Below are positions 3,159-50,188 of a DNA stretch of 64,000 nucleotides, piece by piece; the first letter of the stretch is position 1, and the number at the start of each line of letters is the position of its first letter. The stretch is from Branchiostoma floridae (Eukaryota; Chordata; Leptocardii; Amphioxiformes; Branchiostomatidae). The notes beneath the pieces were generated by a model. The model was not told where the DNA came from and did not search any database. It worked only from the letters and a program-made list of their open reading frames with translations. The translations under genes were made by a program, and so were the position numbers. The stretch is taken from NCBI RefSeq assembly GCF_000003815.2, contig NC_049996.1, forward strand, positions 18,452,968 to 18,516,967. Direction: 5' to 3'.

Positions 3159-3305
3159 ATGGCGGACATCTGGAACTTTCCCGAGTTCACACGGGCAGTC
3201 GTGCGAGAGGTTTCAGATAACGTCAACAACGCAACGCGAAGCCCGATTTCCACGGAAGACATTGACCTGGACAAGTGCCGGGCTGAGTGGGAACTCTACG
3301 TGCAG
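3159..3305 (+). CDS. DDAH: DDAH exon 1
   Basis: Residues 1-49, beginning MADIWNFPEF and ending WELYVQ, followed by donor GTATAG. Its last 12 bases (CTCTACGTGCAG) recur exactly at the end of intron 1. The N-terminus is divergent, but the RAEWELYV stretch aligns with the LYV region of vertebrate DDAH1. Confidence 0.9.
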
Positions 3306-6300
3306 GTATAGCAACAAACAATCGGTGTTCTGTCTACAATGTTGTTGATTAGGTTGAACACTTTTTATGTTACAGAAGGGAACATATTGTTTTTGCTTTG
3401 TTTCTTCTTCTTTTCCGCACAAATAAGGTCAACGACCTGGACCAGACGGCTGTCACCATGGTAACAGGTAAAGTAGCAGGCACCATGTGGTGTTCGGTTA
3501 CATAATGTAGCAAATGTCAGATCTAGAGGGGCTCGGGTCACTACATTTAGAAATGTGTTCAAATAAGAATGAACAAAACAGTTGCCAGTGTTAGACTACA
3601 ACATGTGAAGGTAACATTCTGTATTTGCTTGCAAATATTACCTTTCTAGTTCTTTGATTGTGTAACTGTAAAGCCTTTGTGGGCAGAAGTCGAAGATACT
3701 CATTATCATTGACAATACAAGATGTCATTCATTCTGGGGTACCATATTTGTAATATAAAACAGTTCCAATACATTAACGAAATGATATTGCTGGGGAAAT
3801 TCACCATTGGTAAGTTTAAATATGGAAACACTCATATGGACTTAGTTACATTGTTCAAATCTGAATGTTCTTTAAGAAATCTATGAAGAATTGATTGTAT
3901 ACACATGTCCCATACAGAATGAGCAATAAAGTTTTATCATTAAAAAAAAAACCTCTACGTGCAGACGCTACGGGACCTGGGTCTGGACGTGACGGTGATT
4001 CCGCAAGACCCCAGCCTGCCCGACTGCATGTTCGTGGAAGATTCATGCATCGTGGTTGGAGACACGGCGCTCATCACGAGGCCCGCATGCGGACCCAGGC
4101 AGGGGGAGGTCAGTGATGTCATGTTAACTGTTTCAATATTGATTGAATGAATGAAGACATTTATTGCACATTTTTGCCACACTGGGCTAAGTACAGGTCA
4201 CAACAAGACATGTTGAAAAGATACAGTAAACAGGTACAAAATGAGACTATTGCTGGATAAATTCAACTTCTCCTCGCTTTTCTGTTATAGTGGAGATAAA
4301 AGAGCAGATATGTTTTATGATCGATGGTTTGTCTAGTTGCATTAGGAATATGAATTTTTCCACAGAACTTAATAGGTGTATGAAATATTACTCACCACTC
4401 TGAAGAAATCATTACTCGTCACTCTGAAAATGCTGTATGTTGTCTATTCCTTCGACTATAATTGTTAAGACAACACGTTGTTGTTCGTCCATCGGAAGTT
4501 GATGAGGACAACACAGAGTTGTTCGATTTCAACCTCTGAGGTTTTTGTTTTTTTGAAATCGAAAATATTCTGAGTTTATCGGTGAAATATTCATTTAGAT
4601 TTCCTTGTACTGTGAGCTATTTTCATTACTCGCCACTCGTGTCATGTTATTGTAAAAATGCTGTTTATTGTTGTCTATCGGTAGACAACACGATTTCAAC
4701 CTTTGAAGAGCAGATGCAAAGGACAGCATGTTCAAATACATGTACACTGACCTTATCTGTTCCTGCTATCCCCCCCCCCCCAAAGTATTCAGATCCAAAA
4801 AAGGAATGAATATGAAGTTAATGAATGAATGAAGACCTTTATTGTACAGTTTTGCCCAACCGAGCTAAGTACAGGTCACAACAAGCCAAAACATATATAC
4901 AATCATATAAAAGTATCACAAATCTAGTCTAACACAGCAGTTCGGCTTCTTCTCGCTTCTTGGTAATGGTGAAAATGTAGGACTGTATGGGTTTAGCTAT
5001 GGTCGGTTTGTCAAAACGCATGAGGAATCAGTTCTTCTCATGTGTCTAAAATGAGGTAATCTACGTTCTATGTAATTAAATAGAGTATTATTAATATTCA
5101 ATGACTCAATCAACCCTTCTTTGTCCACTATCTGTTTAAGAGAATTTAATTAATGAATGAAGACCTTTATTGTACATACATACCCACTGGGTTCAGTACA
5201 GGTCACAATAAATGATACGACATGATATAATGATACAATGAATTTACACTACTCAAGAATCGTATTCTACTGCGTACATTCGGCTTCTTCTCGTTTCTTT
5301 GTGATATTAAAAATGTAAGAACAGATATGCTTTATAAGTAAAGGTTTGTCTAGATTCATAAGGAATATAAATTTGTCTATATTACCAAGGACGTTACATC
5401 AGAAGTAACGTCCTTGATATTACTTAGTGGTATGAAATGGGGGAACATGGATTCTATTAGTCTGTATAGTTCAGCTCTTTCTTTCTTGTACAAACTACAT
5501 TCTACTACAAAATGATGTTAGTCTTCTAACTTATCTAGATTGCAGTATCTATTTTCGTTGTATCTATATTCGTTGTATGTATCTTATCTTCATTTCTTTC
5601 AGACAGCGATAATGGAAGAGATCATGGCGAATCTCGGGCTAAAAGTAAAAGTGGTAGAAAGTGATACAGCCACCCTGGAAGGCGGTGACGTCATTTTTAC
5701 AGGTTGGTAGATTTCAGGATGTCCTTAAAGATGTCTTATTCTGTGCTGTTTCTTATTGATTAACGAAGTTACTGTATATAGAAGGCAGATTGGAATCAAA
5801 AGAGTGTCTCTTTTCCGAAGCATCGAAAGTTCCAAGGAAAGAAAACCGTCTTTGCTCAGATGCAACATTGATATGCAAATTCAATCCTGATTTTAAACCT
5901 GACTTTTTTTGTTATGTTTCCTGTGTTATCTCATGTTAAGGTTAAACTTTTGATTCATTCGTTTGGCAGTATGATTTTACGTTATCTAAGTTAATCTAGT
6001 TTTGTACAGTATTTATGTTACCTAAGTAATTTGGTTTCGTAGAACTTTTTTGTACGATTATGTTATTGAAGTTAATTAGTTGAACTTTATGTATGACTTA
6101 TGTTCGGGGTTCTCCCTACAGGGGGCTTTGAAAAACGCCGTCAGGCGATATGCTTTCACCCTGGTTGAATAAAGAATAAACAAACAAACAAATGCAAGAT
6201 ATGTATATTTTCCTGGCCACTTGTTTTCAATAAATTCAAAAGAATGAACTTGTGCAAACAAATATTAATACAACTTTATTTTTTTGTTGTTATGTTTTTG

Positions 6301-8974
6301 TAGGCAAGGAGATATTCTGCGGCGATTCGGTGTTGAGTAACGAGGAGGGGTTCGCCATCTTGCAGGAGACTTTCCCTGACTACCCGTGCCACTCCATCTT
6401 TGTGGAGTATCCGGAGTTCCATCTGAAGGGGTACATGGCGCTGGCTGCTCCGGGGGTGATCGCCACGTGTGATAATGAGTGGGGGCATCCTGGCTGGAAG
6501 GTCAGCTGTTGTACTTGTTATTACCTTCGCCAAGAAGGTTATGTCTTTTGGGGTAGCCATCCTTCTACTTGGGGACATCCAACGGCGAAACCGCCTGTCT
6601 GGATGTACCTAATCTCCAAGCAGATCCCACGGTAGCATATGCATAAGGTAGTATCAAAAGCTGACAGAGGAGTGAAGCCGGCTTTAGGAGTATGTTTCGC
6701 TACTACATTGCAAATAGACACCATTTAGCTGACTACACTCCATGGCCAGTTTGATCTTATGCCATTGTAGGATCTGCTTTGAGATTAGATGTACCCTGCT
6801 TTCCTGACCACCCTGCTCATAAATATTAATGAGCTTTCTCTTATATATGCGAGATCCCTTTTGAAAACTGAAAATCCTATTCTCTGATTGGCTGACAGCT
6901 GGTTTGTGGCAACGCCCACAGGAACCAAGAGTGACGGTTGAGAAAGCAGGGTACATCCAGACAGGCGGTTTCGCCGTTGGATGTGTCTGCGTAAGAGGAT
7001 GGAACGGAAGTAGCGTTCATTGTATGTATGTTTGTATGTTTTGTTGAAGACCAGCACAACTCGAGAACGCTTGGATGGATTGTATTGATATTCGGTATGT
7101 GGGTAGGGCTAGCTTGGTGACCTAAAAACGACAAGATTTTGCCCCCCTCCCCCACCCCAGCGACTTGTTATGTTTACATTTACCGAAGCTTAACATCATA
7201 AACGCTTTTGATCCGTTTATTCGTCCACTTTAATCCAAGCAAATAAGGGCAATGACCAAGACCAGGTGGCTGTTACCATGGTCACTGGTCAAGGAATAGG
7301 CACCCTGTGGTGTTGGATTACATAATGTAGCAAATGGCAGGACAAAGTTAGAGGGGCTGGTCAACATATACATGTATAAAAGTGTTTGAGTGATGAAAAT
7401 AGTAGTAATTTGTATTTACAAATGTCACCTTTACTAGTTTGTTACCTACTTGAAAACTAGCCTGTGTTTACACAAGCTCTCGCTGGCTGGAGTTAATTAT
7501 GGTGGCGGCAATTGTAGGGCCGGCCGCTAGGGGCGCGATTTTAGTCAGGCTATTTGAAAACCTGGCGTATTGTTTTCAGTCTGTGTGTGTGTGTGTTTGT
7601 TCGTTTGTACTGATGTATATCCATAGAAATCTGTTACAGAAGGAATCATTACATTTTCCCTAATTTTTCTACAACTTCACTGTACAATCAACACTTGTGT
7701 ATAAAGACTCACGAAAATATGCCGTAATACCCCTGTCACATTTGGCGAAAATCGATCGAACGACGATTCTGCGGCAATCGCCCGAGCCTCGCTTATAATA
7801 ATAACTTTATTGCACGACAATTGTACAAGGTACAAAGTATGGCTTATATGTGACAGGGACGGTTTTCAGATGAAAAATATGCGCAACCCTCTGTCGATCT
7901 TAAATATGACCGATCTTCCATCGATACGCCCGAAGATCGTGGATAATGTGACAGGGGTATAACTGCAACTGAAAGAAAACACCACCAACAACAACAGATT
8001 GTCGTGGTAATCTATTTCTGCTCTTGTCGAGTTCCTTTTGTGATTTTATCATCTTGTCCAACCTTGACAGGACATCTGCGACACCTCCAACTACACTTAC
8101 AAGCCCCTTTGGATTCCTGACGACTTTGGTAACAACTGCATGTTCATCAACGGCAACATCATACACACTACAGATGACCAGAAGCCGGACACTTATGCGG
8201 TATGTTCCCTCCACACTATAGTTTTGTTCCTCTCTACTGGGCTGATGTAATCGTACTTTTCATTGGTCACCATTCCTGCTTATCTCATTCTGATTGGCCA
8301 GAGTCCTGTGTGTCTGTCCTTCTGATTGGTTCAAACTTTCAAAAGTCATTAATGCACGTGTGTGTCAGTGAAACTATTAATGCACGGCTGTTAATGATTT
8401 TCCATCCCACGGCATCTGTTACGGCGTCATAGCCAACATGAATTGGGGCCTTCTGATTGGTCTACGTCCCCTGGCGATATGATAATATAGTTTATGGACT
8501 GGTTCAGTTGTTCATGGGTACACAGACAGGGCTTATCCGACTGTACTGGTCAGTGGCTTCAATAAATGACAATAAAAGACAAGATAGATGACAAGACACA
8601 AGACTTCATTTTTCTAACATGGAACATAACATATATATATACCAGTTCAATGATTTAAGTAATTCAACAATATTTACAGTACTACGTGTTCCTCAAATTA
8701 AAAAAAAGTCAATCAATCAATCAATCGTTCGCTGGCATCATAAGTTAATGCATGGCGGCTACAGACAATTTATCATATAATATGATAATAAATCGTAAAA
8801 GAGATAAATGAAAGATATATTTCTGTTGAGTTTGTACTACTGGCGCTAACTTATAGATATTTATTTCTGTAGGTGTTCAAGAAACAGATGGCTGACTACA
8901 ACCTGATCGCCATGCCGACGGAGGAGGTCAGCAAGGTTGACGCAGCCCTGACGTGCCAGTCTATCCTGTTCTGA
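3159..8974 (+). CDS. DDAH: Dimethylarginine dimethylaminohydrolase (DDAH), 6 exons, complete
   Basis: Coding exons 3159-3305, 3965-4108, 5603-5702, 6304-6500, 8071-8199 and 8873-8974 join with matching phases (0,0,1,0,0) into 272 codons plus TGA; human DDAH1 is 285 aa. DDAH is a cytosolic enzyme that hydrolyses asymmetric methylarginines to citrulline and a methylamine, relieving inhibition of nitric oxide synthase. Visible family motifs are SLPDCMFVED and TALITRP (exon 2), LEGGDVIFTG (exons 3-4), FHLKG with the catalytic His (about residue 170) and LTCQS near the C-terminus with the nucleophilic Cys (about residue 267). All splice sites are GT-AG. The start is the first ATG after a TATA-like box. 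Intron 1 is unusual (see findings). DDAH1 and DDAH2 cannot be separated from this sequence alone. Confidence 0.95.
3306..3952 (+). mobile_element. Putative retroposed insertion forming DDAH intron 1
   Basis: 647 bp between two exact copies of CTCTACGTGCAG (3294-3305 and 3953-3964). The right end reads AATAAA (3925-3930), 11 bases, then A10 (3942-3951), as expected of a reverse-transcribed RNA 3' end. Part of the body (about 3415-3560) is repeated at about 7237-7370 in DDAH intron 4, including a shared stretch around TTACATAATGTAGCAAATG, so it contains dispersed-repeat sequence. No reading frame was recognised in it. Confidence 0.6.
3965..4108 (+). CDS. DDAH: DDAH exon 2
   Basis: Residues 50-97, holding the substrate-pocket stretches SLPDCMFVED and ALITRP; phase 0 at both ends. 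Its acceptor is atypical: an A-rich tract rather than pyrimidines precedes CTCTACGTGCAG. The donor is GTCAGT. Confidence 0.92.
4141..4260 (-). repeat. CR1/L2-like LINE tail in DDAH intron 2, copy a
   Basis: Starts at (TGAA)n then GACATTTATTGCACATTTTT and GGGCTAAGTACAGGTCACAA. It is antisense to DDAH and begins only about 30 bp after the exon 2 donor. Confidence 0.55.
4821..5100 (-). repeat. CR1/L2-like LINE tail in DDAH intron 2, copy b
   Basis: (AATG)n followed by GACCTTTATTGTACAGTTTT and GAGCTAAGTACAGGTCACAA. Same family and orientation as the neighbouring copies. Confidence 0.55.
5149..5420 (-). repeat. CR1/L2-like LINE tail in DDAH intron 2, copy c
   Basis: AATGAATGAAGACCTTTATT start, then a GGTTCAGTACAGGTCACAAT segment. 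It is the third copy in the same orientation within 1.3 kb. Confidence 0.5.
5603..5702 (+). CDS. DDAH: DDAH exon 3
   Basis: Residues 98-131, TAIMEEIM through TLEGGDVIFTG. The acceptor is TTTCTTTCAG, the donor GTTGGT, and the exon ends in phase 1. Confidence 0.93.
6105..6195 (+). repeat. Non-LTR retrotransposon 3' end in DDAH intron 3
   Basis: CCTGGTTGAATAAAGAATAA followed by (ACAAA)n is a typical LINE 3' terminus in sense orientation. No reverse transcriptase frame is attached. Confidence 0.5.
6304..6500 (+). CDS. DDAH: DDAH exon 4
   Basis: Residues 131-196. It carries the catalytic His in EFHLKG and the following APGVIA strand, ends HPGWK, and has donor GTCAGC. A fold-back MITE starts about 60 bp into the next intron. 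Confidence 0.93.
6558..7001. mobile_element. Fold-back MITE in DDAH intron 4
   Basis: Inverted arms of about 50 bp (6558-6609 and 6950-7001) sharing ACATCCAACGGCGAAACCGC. Copies of the same family are at 45633-45882 and 59410-59493. Interior non-coding. Confidence 0.7.
7237..7440 (+). repeat. Second copy of the repeat found in DDAH intron 1
   Basis: Similar to about 3415-3640: both have an AAATAAGG start, a CACCATGTGGTGTT or CACCCTGTGGTGTT block, TACATAATGTAGCAAATG, then AGAGGGGCT. The poly(A) end seen at 3942-3951 is not visible here. Confidence 0.55.
7726..7961. mobile_element. MITE with AATACCCCTGTCACAT termini
   Basis: The left end AATACCCCTGTCACAT and the right end ATGTGACAGGGGTATA are complementary. 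A LINE-tail-like segment (ACTTTATTGCACGACAATTG) lies inside at about 7800-7840, probably a secondary insertion. Confidence 0.6.
8071..8199 (+). CDS. DDAH: DDAH exon 5
   Basis: Residues 197-239. It contains WIPDDFGNNCMFING, matching the VPDDIAANCIYLN region of vertebrate DDAH1. Acceptor CCTTGACAG, donor GTATGT, phase 0 at both ends. Confidence 0.93.
8873..8974 (+). CDS. DDAH: DDAH exon 6 (catalytic Cys, stop)
   Basis: Residues 240-272, ending KVDAALTCQSILF then TGA. The Cys in LTCQS is the position of the DDAH nucleophile. The acceptor is TTTCTGTAG. Confidence 0.94.
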   Translation: MFKKQMADYNLIAMPTEEVSKVDAALTCQSILF

Positions 8975-16244: not shown

Positions 16245-19078
16245 ATCCTGTACATCCTGTGAAGCTGGTGTGTTACACCGAAGGGCGGTTATACTGGCTA
16301 TATAGATACAGATACAGAAGCTGGTGTGTTATGCAGAAGGGTGGTTATACCGGCTATATAAATACAGATACAGAAGCTGGTGTGTTACGCCAAAGGGTGG
16401 TTATACCAGCTGTATAGATACAGATACAGAAGCTGGTGTGTTACGCCGAAGGGCGGTTATACTGGCTATATAGATACAGATACAGAAGCTGGTGTGTTAT
16501 GCTGAAGGGGGTTATACCGGCTATATAGATACAGGTACAGAAGCTGGTGTGTTACGCCGAAGGGCGGTTATACCGGCTATATAGATACAGAATCTGGTGT
16601 GTTACACTGAAGGGCGATTATACCGGCTATATAGATACAGATACAGATACAGAAGCTGGTGTGTTACGCTGAAGGGCGGTTATACCGGCTATATAGATAC
16701 AGATACAGATACAGAAGCTGGTGTGTTACGCTGAAGGGCGGTTATACCGGCTATATAGATACAGATACAGAAGCTGGTGTGTTACGCTGAAAGGCGGTTA
16801 TACCGGCTATATAGATACAGATACAGATACAGAAGCTGGTGTGTTACGCTGAAGGGCGGTTATACCGGCTATATAGATACAGATACAGAAGCTGGTGTGT
16901 TACGCCGAAGGGTGGTTATACCGGCTATATAGATACAGATACAGAAGCTGGTGTGTTACGCCGAAGAGTGGTTATACCGGCTATATAGATACAGATACAG
17001 AAGCTGGTGTGTTACGCCGGAGGGCGGTTATACCAGCTATATAGATACAATACAGAAGCTGGTGTGTTACACCAAAGGGCGGTTATACTGGATACAGATA
17101 CAGAAGCTGGTGTGTTACACCGAAGGACGGTTATAGTTATACCGGCTATATAGATACAGATCCAGAAGCTGGTGTGTTACGCCGAAGGGCGGTTATACCG
17201 GCTATATATAGATACAGATACAGAAGCTGGTGTGTTATGCTAAAGGGTGGTTATACCGGCTATATAGATACAGATACAGAAGCTGGTGTGTTACGCTGAA
17301 GGGTGGTTATACCGGCTATATATAGATACAGATACAGAAGCTGGTGTGTTACGCTGAAGGGCGGTTATACCGGCTATATAGATACAGATACAGAAGCTGG
17401 TGTGTTACGCTGAAGGCTGGTTATACCGGCTATGTAGATACAGATACAGAAGCTGGTGTGTTACGCCGAAGGGCGGTTATACTGGATACAGATACAGAAG
17501 CTGGTGTGTTACGCCGAAGGACGGTTATAGTTATACCGGCTATATAGATACAGATACAGAAGCTGGTGTGTTACGCCGAAGGGCGATTATACCGGCTATA
17601 TAGATACAGATACAGAAGCTGGTGTGTTACGCCGAAGGCTGGTTATAGTTATACCGGCTATATAGATACAGATACAGAAGCTGGTGTGTTATGCCAAAGG
17701 GCGGTTATACCGGATACAGATACAGAAGCTGGTGTGTTACACCGAAGGACGGTTATAGTTATACCGGCTATATAGATACAGATACAGAAGCTGGTGTGTT
17801 ACGCCGAAGGCTGGTTATACCGGCTATATAGTTACAGATACAGAAGCTGGTGTGTTACGCTGAAGGACGGTTATACCGGCTATGTAGATACAGATACAGA
17901 TACAGAAGCTGGTGTGTTACGCTGAAGGGCGGTTATACCGGCTATATAGATACAGATACAGAAGCTGGTGTGTTACGCCGAAGGGCGGTTATACCGGCTA
18001 CATAGATACAGATACAGAAGCTGGTGTGTTACGCCGAAGGGCGGTTATACCGGCTATATAGATACAGATACAGAAGCTGGTGTGTTACGCCGAAGGGTGG
18101 TTATACCGGCTATATAGATACAGATACAAAAGCTGGTGTGTTACGCCGAAAGGCAGTTATACCGGCTATATAGATACAGATACAGAAGCTGGTGTGTTAC
18201 GCTGAAGGACGGTTATACCGGCTATATAGATACAGATACAGAAGCTGGTGTGTTACGCCGAAGGGTGGTTATACCGGCTATATAGATACAGATACAGAAG
18301 CTGGTGTGTTACGCCGAAGGGCGGTTATACCGGCTACATAGATACATAGACAGAAGCTGGTGTGTTACGCCGAAGGGCGGTTATACCAGCTATATAGATA
18401 CAGATACAGAAGCTGGTGTGTTACGCTGAAGGGCGGTTATACCGGCTATATAGATACAGATACAGAAGCTGGTGTGTTACGCCGAAGGGTGGTTATACCG
18501 GCTATATAGATACAGATACAGAAGCTGGTGTGTTACGCTGAAGGATGGTTATACCGGCTATATAGATACAGATACAGAAGCTGGACCAGGTGTGTTACGC
18601 CAAAGGACGGTTATACCGGCTATACAGATACAGATACAGAAGCTGGTGTGTTACGCCAAAGGGCGGTTATACCGGCTATATACAGATACAGAAGCTGGTG
18701 TGTTACGCAGAAGGGGGGTTATACCGGCTATATAGATACAGATACAGAAGCTGGTGTGTTACGCCGAAGGGTGGTTATACCGGCTATATAGATACAGATA
18801 CAGAAGCTGGTGTGTTACGCCGAAGGGTGGTTATACCGGCTATATAGATACAGATACAGAAGCTGGTGTGTTACGCTGAAGGATGGTTATACCGGCTATA
18901 TAGATACAGATACAGAAGCTGGACCAGGTGTGTTACGCCAAAGGACGGTTATACCGGCTATACAGATACAGATACAGAAGCTGGTGTGTTACGCCAAAGG
19001 GCGGTTATACCGGATACAGATACAGAAGCTGGTGTGTTATGCCGAAGGGTGGTTATACCGGCTATATAGATACAGATA
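16245..19078 (+). repeat. Minisatellite A, 56-bp unit, about 50 copies
   Basis: Unit: GAAGCTGGTGTGTTACGCCG, AAGGGCGGTTATACCGG, CTATATAGATACAGATACA. Variants differ in GATACA copy number and carry occasional GTTATA insertions and short units lacking CTATATA. A block of about 338 bp (six units) starting near 18472 is repeated at 18810. 56 is not a multiple of three, so the array runs through all frames; the Tyr/Arg-rich open frames in it are artefacts. It ends about 440 bp upstream of the MGAT5 start codon. Confidence 0.97.
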
Positions 19079-22700: not shown

Positions 22701-25700
22701 TGTATTTAGCGGTGAGAAATTCCTTTTTAGCCAGCGGAACTGATCTCAAAAGTTAGATTGGTGAAATCTTGTTTGTAACTGAAGAAATTAGCAGGTAAAT
22801 TTTTGCAGCCGCGCGCTAGGTCGGAGGTACACAGTCGTGGGTTCTGAGTGATACGGTTGTACACTAGCAGGGAAAAAGTGCCTTTTGTGGGGATTGACTA
22901 ATCGTAGTTTTTAATTGCTATAAAAAAAAGTTGCTATGTATAGTTTACGTTGGCAATTTTTCCCCACGATATAGGGTAAATGTGCTCGACATACGAGGGG
23001 TGTTCAATAAGTTATGCCCCTGACTCACTTCCAGTTGTTTGATCTAGATGAAATTTTGCATTTGTAATGATTTATATCTCTATGAATTATGTTGCAAAAA
23101 ACAGCTCTGAACTAATTGAGGTTTCTGATGTACTGGTGTTTGAATAGAGTCAGGTGTGAAATGGAACAGGTGTGAAATGGAGCCAGTTGAGTGTCACACA
23201 GTGATCCGGTTTTTGTATTTGAAAGGACGCAAACCAAAGAAGACTTTTGATGAAATGAAAGAAACTTATGGTGATGATGCCCCATCATATGACCTTGTAA
23301 AACGCTGGCATCGTGAATTTAAACATGGCCGTAAGTCTGTGGAAACAGCTCCCAAACCTGGTCGTCCCTCTTCTGCCATCGATGAGGCATCTGTTGGAGG
23401 ACCAACCTGGGGTCTTCTATAAAAACGGTGTCCAGAGTTGCATCAAACGATGGAAGAAATGCATAACTTTGGGTGGTTCCTATATAGAGAACGACTAATA
23501 ACTGTGCCAAGTTTCATTAATCTCCTGCTATGGGAAATGGGTCGGTGGCATTACTTATTGAACGCCCCTCGTAGAATGAAAAATCTGCTGAAATTTCAGG
23601 TAGCTTCATTATGAACGCGCCCATTTAAACCACGAATTATAACATAGAAGTCTATGGGAAGAAGAAACTCATCAATGAGACCATAATACAGTAGAATCCT
23701 GTTCATCACATGACCTATTTGTCAGTGAATTTTATGCAGCTATCAGGTTTAGTCCATTAAACCTTGTAGACCAAACGAGAGGCACTCGTTAACAACTCGT
23801 TAAGTTTACAATTTTGTTCCCATACCGGTTTCCCTTTGTGGTGCAGGCATCAGAAGATTTATCATTGAAGCTCATCTGTATTGGTAGTAATCATACGTGT
23901 AGCAGAATGCTAAACTTTCCTCCAGCACAAAATCCAATCATTATACAAAACGTGGGACAATTCATTAACCACTGCCTTCAAAGAAGATGTTAAACATTCA
24001 TATTGTATCATTGATTAGATCAAAGTGTTATGTATCACACTATTTTCTACACATTACTAATTTTGGACTGTACTACAATCAATTGCGTATATATAGCCTT
24101 CAGGCATGATTTTGCAAATAAAACAATTTATGCAGGTTTAGGCCATTAACCCTACGTAGGAGACCAAACAAATAGCTGACAACTTGTTAATGTTCACAGT
24201 TTTGTTCCTATACCAGTGTTCCCTTTGTGGTACGGACGTCAGCCTGTACATAATCCCTTAACATAATTTTTACTAGGAACTACAAAATAATTATGTATAT
24301 TTTTCCAAAACCATTCAGAGACAATTTCAAAACTTTTGGCTGTTTGATGTCTTTGCATAGACCCTTGTCCGCTTCTTTTGGTTGTTTTTGTGATTTTTAT
24401 CATGCATTTCCAGGTCAGTATCTGCTATGTGCCGTGACATCTTTCTCTTTATAACTATGCCAATACCAGGTTTACGCCATAATGATTTATGATACTCCCT
24501 TTGTCTCCCAATACACTCGAGCTTGTCGATCAATACCAAGACTGTTGCAGATGTCATTGAAGGTCGCGGACATGAAACAGCTTTGTGCGAAGCCTGGAGG
24601 AAAATTTATTGATCTTTTAAAGTACACGTATGTGTCACCAATGACACTAAAATACAACTATATTGATTACTCTCAAGTATCTTTATACAATAAATTCTTT
24701 AGTTTGTACAAAATATACACCCTTCTGATAGTAGTGAACATCCAACATGAGGGTTACAGTCTATGTCGTAACTCTGCACACCTGTTAACATAAGTAAAGG
24801 CATTGTTTCAACAAATACGGTATACAGTAACTAACTGTAAATGCATTCATGTTTGCAGTTGTTTCTATTTTGCAAGAGGAGGAAAAAGATCTTTTTAAAG
24901 TTCACAATTCTGATATACAGTCAGTAGATTATCAGTACAATCTCAGTATTTTTTTCATTTTATTTATGTTATGAAGTATATTCTTAGACAAGTGTTATGA
25001 TTTTGCTGGCATTGCAACAACTGCAAAAGTGAAAATGCAGTAATTTCACAAGACAGTCGACGTCTCAATTACTTTCCATTTATTGAATTTGATTGATTGA
25101 TACTGATAGACACAAAAATTGCACACTTGTATTTTTCCCTGTTATTACTAGTACTTAAATATGAACTGAAGTATGATTAATGAGTCCTCCTCAGGGATTT
25201 AACTTGAATTAAGATGGATGATACTTTCCTTAATGATATCTTTGCACAGAAACTGCAGGGAGTTACTTAATTACAGTAGCTGCATGTGGATTCAATTTGA
25301 CCTTGAGGATATGGGTGTTGATTTATCTTGACCTTGAAAATTTGACAGATGATTCATCAATGTCAATATTGTTCCGTACATCAATCTGGGCTTGAAATTC
25401 CCAAATCAGGGCTTGAAATACTGGGTGTGCACCCAGGTGCACCCAAGATTGGAGCTGTGCACCCAATTATTTTCTGTAGGTGCACAGGGTGCACCCAAAT
25501 ATTTTCATAAGTTTATGTATGTCAAGATATCAAAGTATACTAGAATACATCATTTTCTTGACATCTAAGTGTAAAAAAAGATAATAAAAATGTCTGTAAT
25601 GGTGCTTGTTTAAGAATTTGATAGCTTGTAACTAAGTTTTATTATTAGGTTATATTTTATTTTAGTTATAAAATTTTTTGGTGCACCCAATTTCTTAAGC

Positions 25701-48554: not shown

Positions 48555-48599
48555 AATATAGTCAGGCTATTATTAGGGGGCGAGCAATTAAATCTGTCC

Positions 48600-50188
48600 G
48601 GATATGCAGGTTGTACTCAGTACAAACCTGAAGCGTTACGCCTTAAGGCGGTTTACCTGGTATGCAGCTTGTACTGTTCAGTACAGACCTGGTGTGTTAC
48701 ACCATGAGGCGGTTAACCGGGTATGCAGCTTGTAGTGTTCAGTACAAACCTTGTGTGTTACGCCTTAAGGCGGTTTACCTGGTATGCAGCTTGTATTGTT
48801 CAGTACAAACCTGGTGTGTTACACCATGAGACGGTACCGGGTATGCAGCTTGTACTGTTCAGTACAAACCTGGTGTGTTACACCATGAGGCGGTTTACCG
48901 GGTATGCAGCTTGTACTGTTCAGTACAAACCTGGTGTGTTACGCCTTAAGGCGGTTTACCTGGTATGCAGCTTGTATTGTTCAGTACAAACCTGGTGTGT
49001 TATGCCATGAGGCGGTTTACCGGATATGCAGCTTGTACTGTTCAGCACAAACCTGGTGTGTTACACCATGAGGCTGTTTACCGGGTATGCAGCTTGTACT
49101 GTTCAGTACAAACCTTGTGTGTTACACCATAAGGCGGTTTACCTGGTATGCAGCTTGTACTGTTCAGCACAAACCTTGTGTGTTACACCATGGGGCGGTT
49201 TACCGGGTATGCAGCTTGTACTGTTCAGTACAAACCTTGTGTGTTACACCATAAGGCGGTTTACCGGGTATGCAGCTTGTACTGTTCAGCACAAACCTTG
49301 TGTGTTACACCATGGGGCGGTTTACCGGGTATGCAGCTTGTACTGTTCAGTACAAACCTTGTGTGTTACACCATAAGGCGGTTTACCTGGTATGCAGCTT
49401 GTACTGTTCAGCACAAACCTGGTGTGTTACACCATGGGGCGGTTTACCGGGTATGCAGCTTGTACTGTTCAGTACAAACCTTGTGTGTTACACCATAAGG
49501 CGGTTTACCTGGTATGCAGCTTGTACTGTTCAGCACAAACCTGGTGTGTTACGACATACGGCGGTTTACCTGGTATGCAGCTTGTATTGTTCAGTACAAA
49601 CCTGGTGTGTTACGCCTTAAGGCTGTTTACCGGGTATGCAGCTTGTACTGTTCAGTACAAACCTTGTGTGTTACACCATGAGGCGGTTTACCGGGTATGC
49701 AGCTTGTACTGTTCAGTACAAACCTGGTGTGTTACGCCTTAAGGCTGTTTACCGGGTATGCAGCTTGTACTGTTCAGTACAAACCTGGTGTGTTACGCCA
49801 TGAGACGGTTTACCGGGTATGCAGCTTGTACTGTTCAGTACAAACCTGGTGTGTTACGCCTTAAGGCTGTTTACCGGGTATGCAGCTTGTACTGTTCAGT
49901 ACAAACCTGGTGTGTTACACCATGAGGCGGTTTACCGGGTATGCAGCTTGTACTGTTCAGTACAAACCTGGTGTGTTACGCCTTAAGGCTGTTTACCGGG
50001 TATGCAGCTTGTACTGTTCAGTACAAACCTGGTGTGTTACACCATGAGGCGGTTTACCGGGTATGCAGCTTGTACTGTTCAGTACAAACCTGGTGTGTTA
50101 CGCCTTAAGGCGATTTACCTGGTATGCAGCTTGTGCTGTTCAGTACAAACCTGATGTATTACCCTCAAGGCAGTTTACCGGGTATGCA
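48600..50188 (+). repeat. Minisatellite C, 61-bp unit, about 26 copies
   Basis: Unit: GGTATGCAGCTTGTACTGTT, CAGTACAAACCTGGTGTGTT, ACGCCTTAAGGCGGTTTACC. ACGCC-TTAAGG and ACACC-ATGAGG variants alternate. Between about 49020 and 49560 a 122-bp dimer (CAGCACAA/CAGTACAA alternation) is the repeating unit. It shares GGTGTGTTACGCC and the following GGCGGTT-ACCGG with minisatellite A. It ends about 275 bp upstream of the RTK start codon. Confidence 0.97.

Follow-up and report, generated by a model that had tools for sequence, protein, structure and literature searches.

What process placed an intron after the first coding exon of a DDAH gene of Branchiostoma floridae, when the last 12 bases of that exon recur as the last 12 bases of the intron? 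The gene lies near the start of the window, the whole stretch of 64,000 nucleotides that was analysed (C18:18452968-18516967), and all genome searches were made within one assembly (513,431,437 bases, 431 contigs). The original prediction read the repeat as a target site duplication and the intron as a recent gain from a retroposed insertion. The evidence presented here indicates that intron 1 is very probably the product of one target-primed retroposition event.

The DDAH Gene

The window contained a six-exon gene at 3159-8974 with a product of 272 amino acids. The Pfam family DDAH_eukar matched residues 31-157 of this 272-aa product (3e-7), and the best matches in a PDB search were DDAH1 structures (1.1e-50, residues 7-271). 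Furthermore, LTCQS was found in frame near the C-terminus, and its cysteine is presumably the catalytic cysteine of DDAH. The six joined exons were open over 819 coding bases, with the stop at the end. Judged from these matches, the gene is probably an intact six-exon DDAH that functions in the metabolism of arginine derivatives. Two amphioxus DDAH genes were reportedly the subject of a paper by Chen, Lin and Zhang in 2008 (Gene 410:75). The exons were as follows:

3159 to 3305, plus strand: coding part of exon 1, 49 codons, ending in phase 0 (...WELYVQ)
3965 to 4108, plus strand: exon 2, starting TLRDLG, in frame with exon 1
5603 to 5702, plus strand: exon 3
6304 to 6500, plus strand: exon 4
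8071 to 8199, plus strand: exon 5
8873 to 8974, plus strand: exon 6, including the stop codon

Insertion Scars in Intron 1

Intron 1 and the end of exon 1 contained the following features:

3294 to 3305, plus strand: 5' copy of the 12-bp target site duplication, CTCTACGTGCAG, the final 12 bases of exon 1
3306 to 3964, plus strand: intron 1, 659 bp, GT-AG, donor CAG/GTATAG and acceptor GTGCAG/ACG (splicing predicted from the frame and the paralogs)
3306 to 3366, plus strand: 5' part of a LINE 3'-UTR fragment, 5'-truncated
3367 to 3649, plus strand: nested high-copy element of about 283 bp, ending ...CTAG
3650 to 3941, plus strand: 3' part of the LINE fragment, up to the 3' end of the LINE
3925 to 3930, plus strand: AATAAA signal, also present in the related loci L012-L016, L018, and L022
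3942 to 3951, plus strand: poly(A) tail, A10
3953 to 3964, plus strand: 3' copy of the target duplication, CTCTACGTGCAG, the final 12 bases of intron 1, with its CAG as the predicted 3' splice site

The two copies of the 12-bp sequence (3294-3305 and 3953-3964) were identical at 12/12 positions, exactly as the original prediction had it. The second copy was preceded by AATAAA, 11 bases, and A10 at the places claimed, with one C between A10 and the copy. The identical run shared by exon end and intron end was 12 bases at intron 1, versus 2, 2, 2, and 1 at introns 2-5, and a 12-bp match was reached by 0/300 shuffles of the 5' flank. In the window, 2971 of 63,525 12-mers recurred at a distance of 400-1000 bp, but this plain count is inflated by tandem arrays and offers no useful null. 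The insert, 647 bp in length, began with GTATAG, and the space between exons 1 and 2 held the LINE, the nested element, the poly(A) tail, and the target copy, and nothing more. A tandem duplication of an exon piece was ruled out as the source since the insert is not exonic.

Proposed Origin and Splicing

In the proposed series of events, the 3' end of a LINE transcript would have been reverse-transcribed into a continuous exon 1, whose empty site would read CTCTACGTGCAG-ACGCTACGG. The copy would start with GTATAG because a chance 5' truncation fell there, and the 12 exon bases ending in CAG would have been duplicated. The left target copy would stay exonic and form, with the GT of the insert, the donor CAG/GTATAG, whereas the right copy, located after the poly(A) tail, would give the acceptor ...GTGCAG/. 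The sequence at both sites was as originally claimed, with the donor at the first bases of the insert and the acceptor AG in the duplicated CAG. Removal of the insert plus one target copy would restore LYVQ-TLRDLG exactly; the predicted continuous exon WELYVQ-TLRDLG agrees with the phase 0 end of exon 1 and the 819 open bases. The insertion would thus be neutral for the protein, and the intron is apparently removable without a protein change because the duplicated target ends like an intron. The high-copy element would then have inserted inside the young intron. A sense insertion of this kind that leaves no scar in the protein needs a target that ends in AG and a truncation that starts with GT, which we estimate at about 1 in 256.

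Splicing is predicted at 3305/3965, and TTTTATC offers a candidate branch point that appears fair by eye, its A lying near 3936, 28 bases before the acceptor. The donor departed from the consensus after +3, and a run of A occupied the acceptor where pyrimidines are expected. Intron 1 contained 7/17 pyrimidines at -20..-4, the lowest of the five introns (15, 12, 11, and 10 in introns 2-5), so that the acceptor indeed lacks a pyrimidine tract, as had been noticed at the outset. Splicing may therefore be inefficient. An insert that is spliced poorly or not at all would be a disabling allele, and this gene copy would then represent a null or rare haplotype. The weak acceptor, the imperfect donor, the immediate stop in the unspliced insert (GTA TAG), and the high heterozygosity of amphioxus (3.2 to 4.2%; PMC12862219) are in keeping with such an allele. 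However, coding sequence freed from constraint should show breakage, and the six exons were intact over their 819 bases despite 6/250 private differences in the insert. In addition, both sites are usable: the donor reads CAG/GTA, and no AG intervenes between AATAAAG and the acceptor CAG. A disabling allele thus appears unlikely.

Other DDAH Copies and the Age of the Intron Position

The assembly held at least 16 DDAH copies. The comparison covered 15 copies other than the window gene that have the site region; a copy near C6:5015358, which had no first-exon match, was uncounted. Some of the compared rows span the first exon alone, and row N has a frame break between residues 43 and 46, before the site. 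Fourteen of the 15 (C17 and rows D to P) were continuous through the site of intron 1, and C17 read LVQTMRDLGL across it in one frame. Human DDAH1 presumably also has no intron at this position. In a tree of 17 rows and 240 columns, the window gene and C17 were sisters (support 100/96), with paralog B outside (99/97), and the identity to the window gene was 70% for C17, 62% for B, and 55% for the neighbouring copy D. The 12-mer at the site was the window gene's own, as C17 has CTCCTGGTGCAG and B has AACTACGTACAG. An exact degenerate 32-base pattern for an allele that lacks the insert had 0 matches elsewhere in the assembly.

Two further features of these copies were observed. A divergent DDAH copy (55% identical) was located on the opposite strand directly upstream of the window (C18:18448947-18449234; L047). 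C17 harbored a first-exon intron of its own (L049:1702-2097, minus strand; AAG/GTAGTT...CCGAAG/GAA), absent where the other copies read through. This intron was rejected as a second retroposed case: a widespread repeat, roughly 200 bp long, occupied its middle (at least 39 other matches, 76-83% identical, with 40 of 1463 candidates scored), with no whole-intron match.

The intron position is not unique to the window gene, since it is shared exactly, and likewise in phase 0, by an intron of paralog B (C18:7.159-7.167 Mb; CAG/GTACCT...CACCACAG/GTG). No repeat was evident by eye at this intron, and BLAST of its readable parts (240 bp on the 5' side and 817 bp on the 3' side) against the insert gave no match at E 1. 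Its middle reads N (3101/3101 bases of L071, in the region C18 7158900-7164300, L068/L064). Within the readable parts, the B intron thus appears to have no detectable similarity to the window insert. A transfer of the intron from B was rejected because the readable sequence of the B intron, which is mostly N, gave no BLAST match, and because the duplicated 12-mer is the window gene's own.

The distribution of the intron on the tree required two changes, which are either two gains, or an older gain and a loss in C17. Under the second, an old intron was present in the ancestor of the window gene, C17, and B, was lost in C17, and had its content replaced by the LINE in the window gene. The exact position of the phase-0 intron in B is as expected from such a history, which costs the same as two gains, and similarity could be hidden in the N that makes up most of the B intron. 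On the other hand, only the LINE, the nested element, the poly(A) tail, and the target copy lie between the exons, whereas a LINE inserted at the exon end would leave the old intron after the second target copy. The insertion of a LINE into the exon end before an old intron therefore requires the exact deletion of that intron. Furthermore, the 240 and 817 bp readable in B had no BLAST match to the insert at E 1, and forcing the window gene and B together was disfavored (p-AU 0.016, in a test chosen after the tree was known), with C17 as the sister. An old intron with replaced content is thus very unlikely. Any older intron was gone before the LINE came, and, since nothing else remains between the exons, the exon was continuous before the LINE, no matter if B gained its intron independently or kept an older one that disappeared before the window gene and C17 diverged.

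The Insert as a LINE 3' Terminus, Probably L1-like

An insert that arrived by retroposition should have genomic relatives, and a search for them had been suggested together with the original prediction. Relatives of the LINE fragment were found at ten other places in the assembly, several with target duplications of their own, which identifies a low-copy family. The 3' part gave 12 rows beside the window itself, which collapsed to these ten places; the 5' part (3306-3366) gave one relative in the genome search, and BLAST on the fetched loci added L018 and L021. L012-L016 and L022 had the common 3' end GCAATAAAGTT, L018 retained AATAAA with a diverged 3' end, and the 3' end was lost in L010, L017, and L021. 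A-rich tails were present in L012-L015 and in the window, and were not clear in L016 and L022.

Target duplications were scored with 300 shuffles in the window and in eight of the ten relatives (L010 and L021 lay outside the test), with boundaries set by hand. Exact duplications, each reached by 0/300 shuffles, flanked L012 (17 bp), L013 (16 bp), and L017 (19 bp). The repeat flanking L022 was imperfect (15/17; 0/300 shuffles), those of L014 and L015 were weak (9/300 and 5/300), and none was detected in L016 and L018 (225/300 and 113/300). L013 started with 24 nt from the 5' part of the family in inverted orientation, an arrangement expected from twin priming. Upstream of the first base of the insert, about 240 bp were common to L010 and L021, and about 10 bp to L018; the window insert is 5'-truncated, because L010 and L021 extend about 240 bp further. 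The traits of target-primed retroposition were therefore found together, namely, a 12/12-bp duplication, a poly(A) tail after its signal, and dispersed relatives with variable 5' truncation, with the limits that two of the eight relatives had no target duplication and that L016 and L022 had no clear A-tail.

Upstream of the relative on C5 (L010), a frame of 110 amino acids had at least 136 other matches (best 150 of 275 candidates scored), and several of these formed the C-terminal portion of frames that reach about 1250 amino acids. The 110-aa frame alone gave no significant match in a Pfam search. Two of nine other loci with the frame (L037 and L038) both contained RVT_1, with no stops in 618 codons, and the best PDB match of L038 was LINE-1 ORF2p (1e-42), with R2 at 1e-15. 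These RVT_1 and LINE-1 ORF2p matches come from homologous elements that are about 48% identical to the C5 frame. Among the 150 of 275 candidates scored, the closest frame by E-value beyond the C5 copy was 48% identical, whereas identities of 53 and 66% were reached only over shorter stretches; none of them is thus an intact copy of the source. On these sequence comparisons, the insert represents a LINE 3' terminus, probably from an L1-like non-LTR element, and the source would have been autonomous. The claim of a retroposed insert was borne out by the relatives with their own target duplications, the common 3' end, the 5' inversion in one copy, and the link to an L1-like ORF2. The human L1 target site is T-rich. 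Double-strand-break repair with LINE cDNA captured as filler, to which staggered breaks that also leave direct repeats and the implied bottom-strand nick GTAGAG^TTCC, different from that T-rich site, might point, is highly improbable, since the copy ends at the family 3' end followed by poly(A), one C, and the target copy, and since target-primed insertion accounts for the 5' inversion and for the duplications of 16-19 bp that flank three relatives without a mismatch.

The Nested Element

The insert had been described as a single retroposed element. Its retroposition held, but a second element was nested at about 3367-3649. Positions 3372-3651 matched at least 40 other long copies that were 95-99% identical (40 of 1139 first-look candidates scored); the 42 matches listed comprised its own locus, the 40 long copies, and one short and weak match. 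The ends were set by comparing seven copies with their flanks; two of these copies have identical flanks and are therefore not independent. In L021, the LINE 5' part joined the 3' part directly, so that the state without the nested element is visible there. The nested element presumably arrived after the LINE. It contained a small hairpin followed by CTAG and had a T-rich target, and no target duplication was evident by eye. The CTAG end, the hairpin, and the T-rich target are traits of Helitron/Helentron-type elements, and the nested element is perhaps a non-autonomous Helitron or Helentron. A partial second copy of the nested element (77% identical) was observed in intron 4, at 7240-7386.

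Age and Possible Polymorphism

The insert differed from its closest relatives at 15 of 254 sites (L012) and 27 of 284 sites (L013). Private differences relative to both were found at 6 of 250 sites, together with several length differences from the relatives, and some of either kind may predate the insertion. Between the window gene and C17, dS was 1.45 and dN was 0.17 (265 codon pairs, one residue counted twice). The intron is therefore young relative to the gene, and the gain would fall, roughly, in the last few percent of the gene's separate history. The low divergence of the insert and the intronless sister copy C17 both agree with the recent gain that was originally proposed.

The mutation rate of B. 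floridae is 5.89e-9 per base per generation and its Ne is 1.7 million (PMC12862219). By our own arithmetic, this rate and the 6/250 private differences give an insertion age of about 4 million generations (1.5-9 million, counting error alone), and less if some of the differences predate the insertion. This estimate is near the mean coalescence time of a pair (2Ne = 3.4 million), and the intron may still be polymorphic. Fixation versus polymorphism is thus directly testable in existing amphioxus data. One tentative joint reading, possible but doubtful as a whole, is that the intron is about as old as the standing variation, such that a functional intron may still segregate as a presence/absence polymorphism, carried by some individuals and lacking in others, and that the gain in B was independent, in which case introns would have landed at this CAG junction more than once.

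Comparison with Known Transposon-derived Introns

Introns made by transposons are already known, including a Drosophila retrotransposon case, and DDAH intron 1 is a new and unusually legible example. Doc is a non-LTR element, and the rice catalase case involves a SINE. Intron 3 of GM26034 in D. sechellia derives from the retrotransposon Doc1053 (PMC3296678). As in DDAH, a retrotransposon inserted into an exon, flanked by target duplications, turned into an intron. In GM26034, the second duplication is located 15 nt downstream of the intron end and five amino acids were added (PMC3296678), whereas the predicted DDAH splice sites lie exactly at the edges of the duplication and the protein is unchanged. 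The DDAH copy also differs in that it represents a 5'-truncated stretch of a 3' UTR and contains another element nested within it.

Introners likewise involve a mobile element that enters an exon, and one splice site can be provided by the element and the other by the target duplication, as when an element brings the 5' site and co-opts the 3' site (Fig. 2C of PMC9860276). Each introner family is the source of many introns, and most resemble DNA transposons and have short duplications, whereas the single intron in DDAH arose from a single copy of a LINE family. A second exonic case was not evident among six other copies of the family in a weak, non-exhaustive test: with the flanks joined, the longest open frame across the empty site was 26-119 amino acids, versus 141 in the window, and the three longest joined frames (113, 114, and 119 amino acids) gave no Pfam match at 0.01.

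A review table on introns from transposon insertion lists Oryza, Drosophila, Oikopleura, and Zea, and the rice, maize, and Oikopleura cases belong to the same proposed class of mechanism as DDAH intron 1; amphioxus is absent from this list (PMC3443670). No amphioxus intron traced to a transposon was named in the literature searched, which was judged mostly short of full texts. Intron gain in animals is poorly documented because the scars fade. In this one chordate genome, source-element relatives, both target copies, the poly(A) tail, and a sister gene that lacks the intron can all still be read, with no amino acid changed.

Other Repeats in the Window

Self-comparison of the window revealed tandem arrays at 16261-19078 and 48598-50188, with periods of about 56 and 61 bp, and a dispersed repeat in two 582-bp copies (883-1464 and 22992-23573) that were 90.6% identical.
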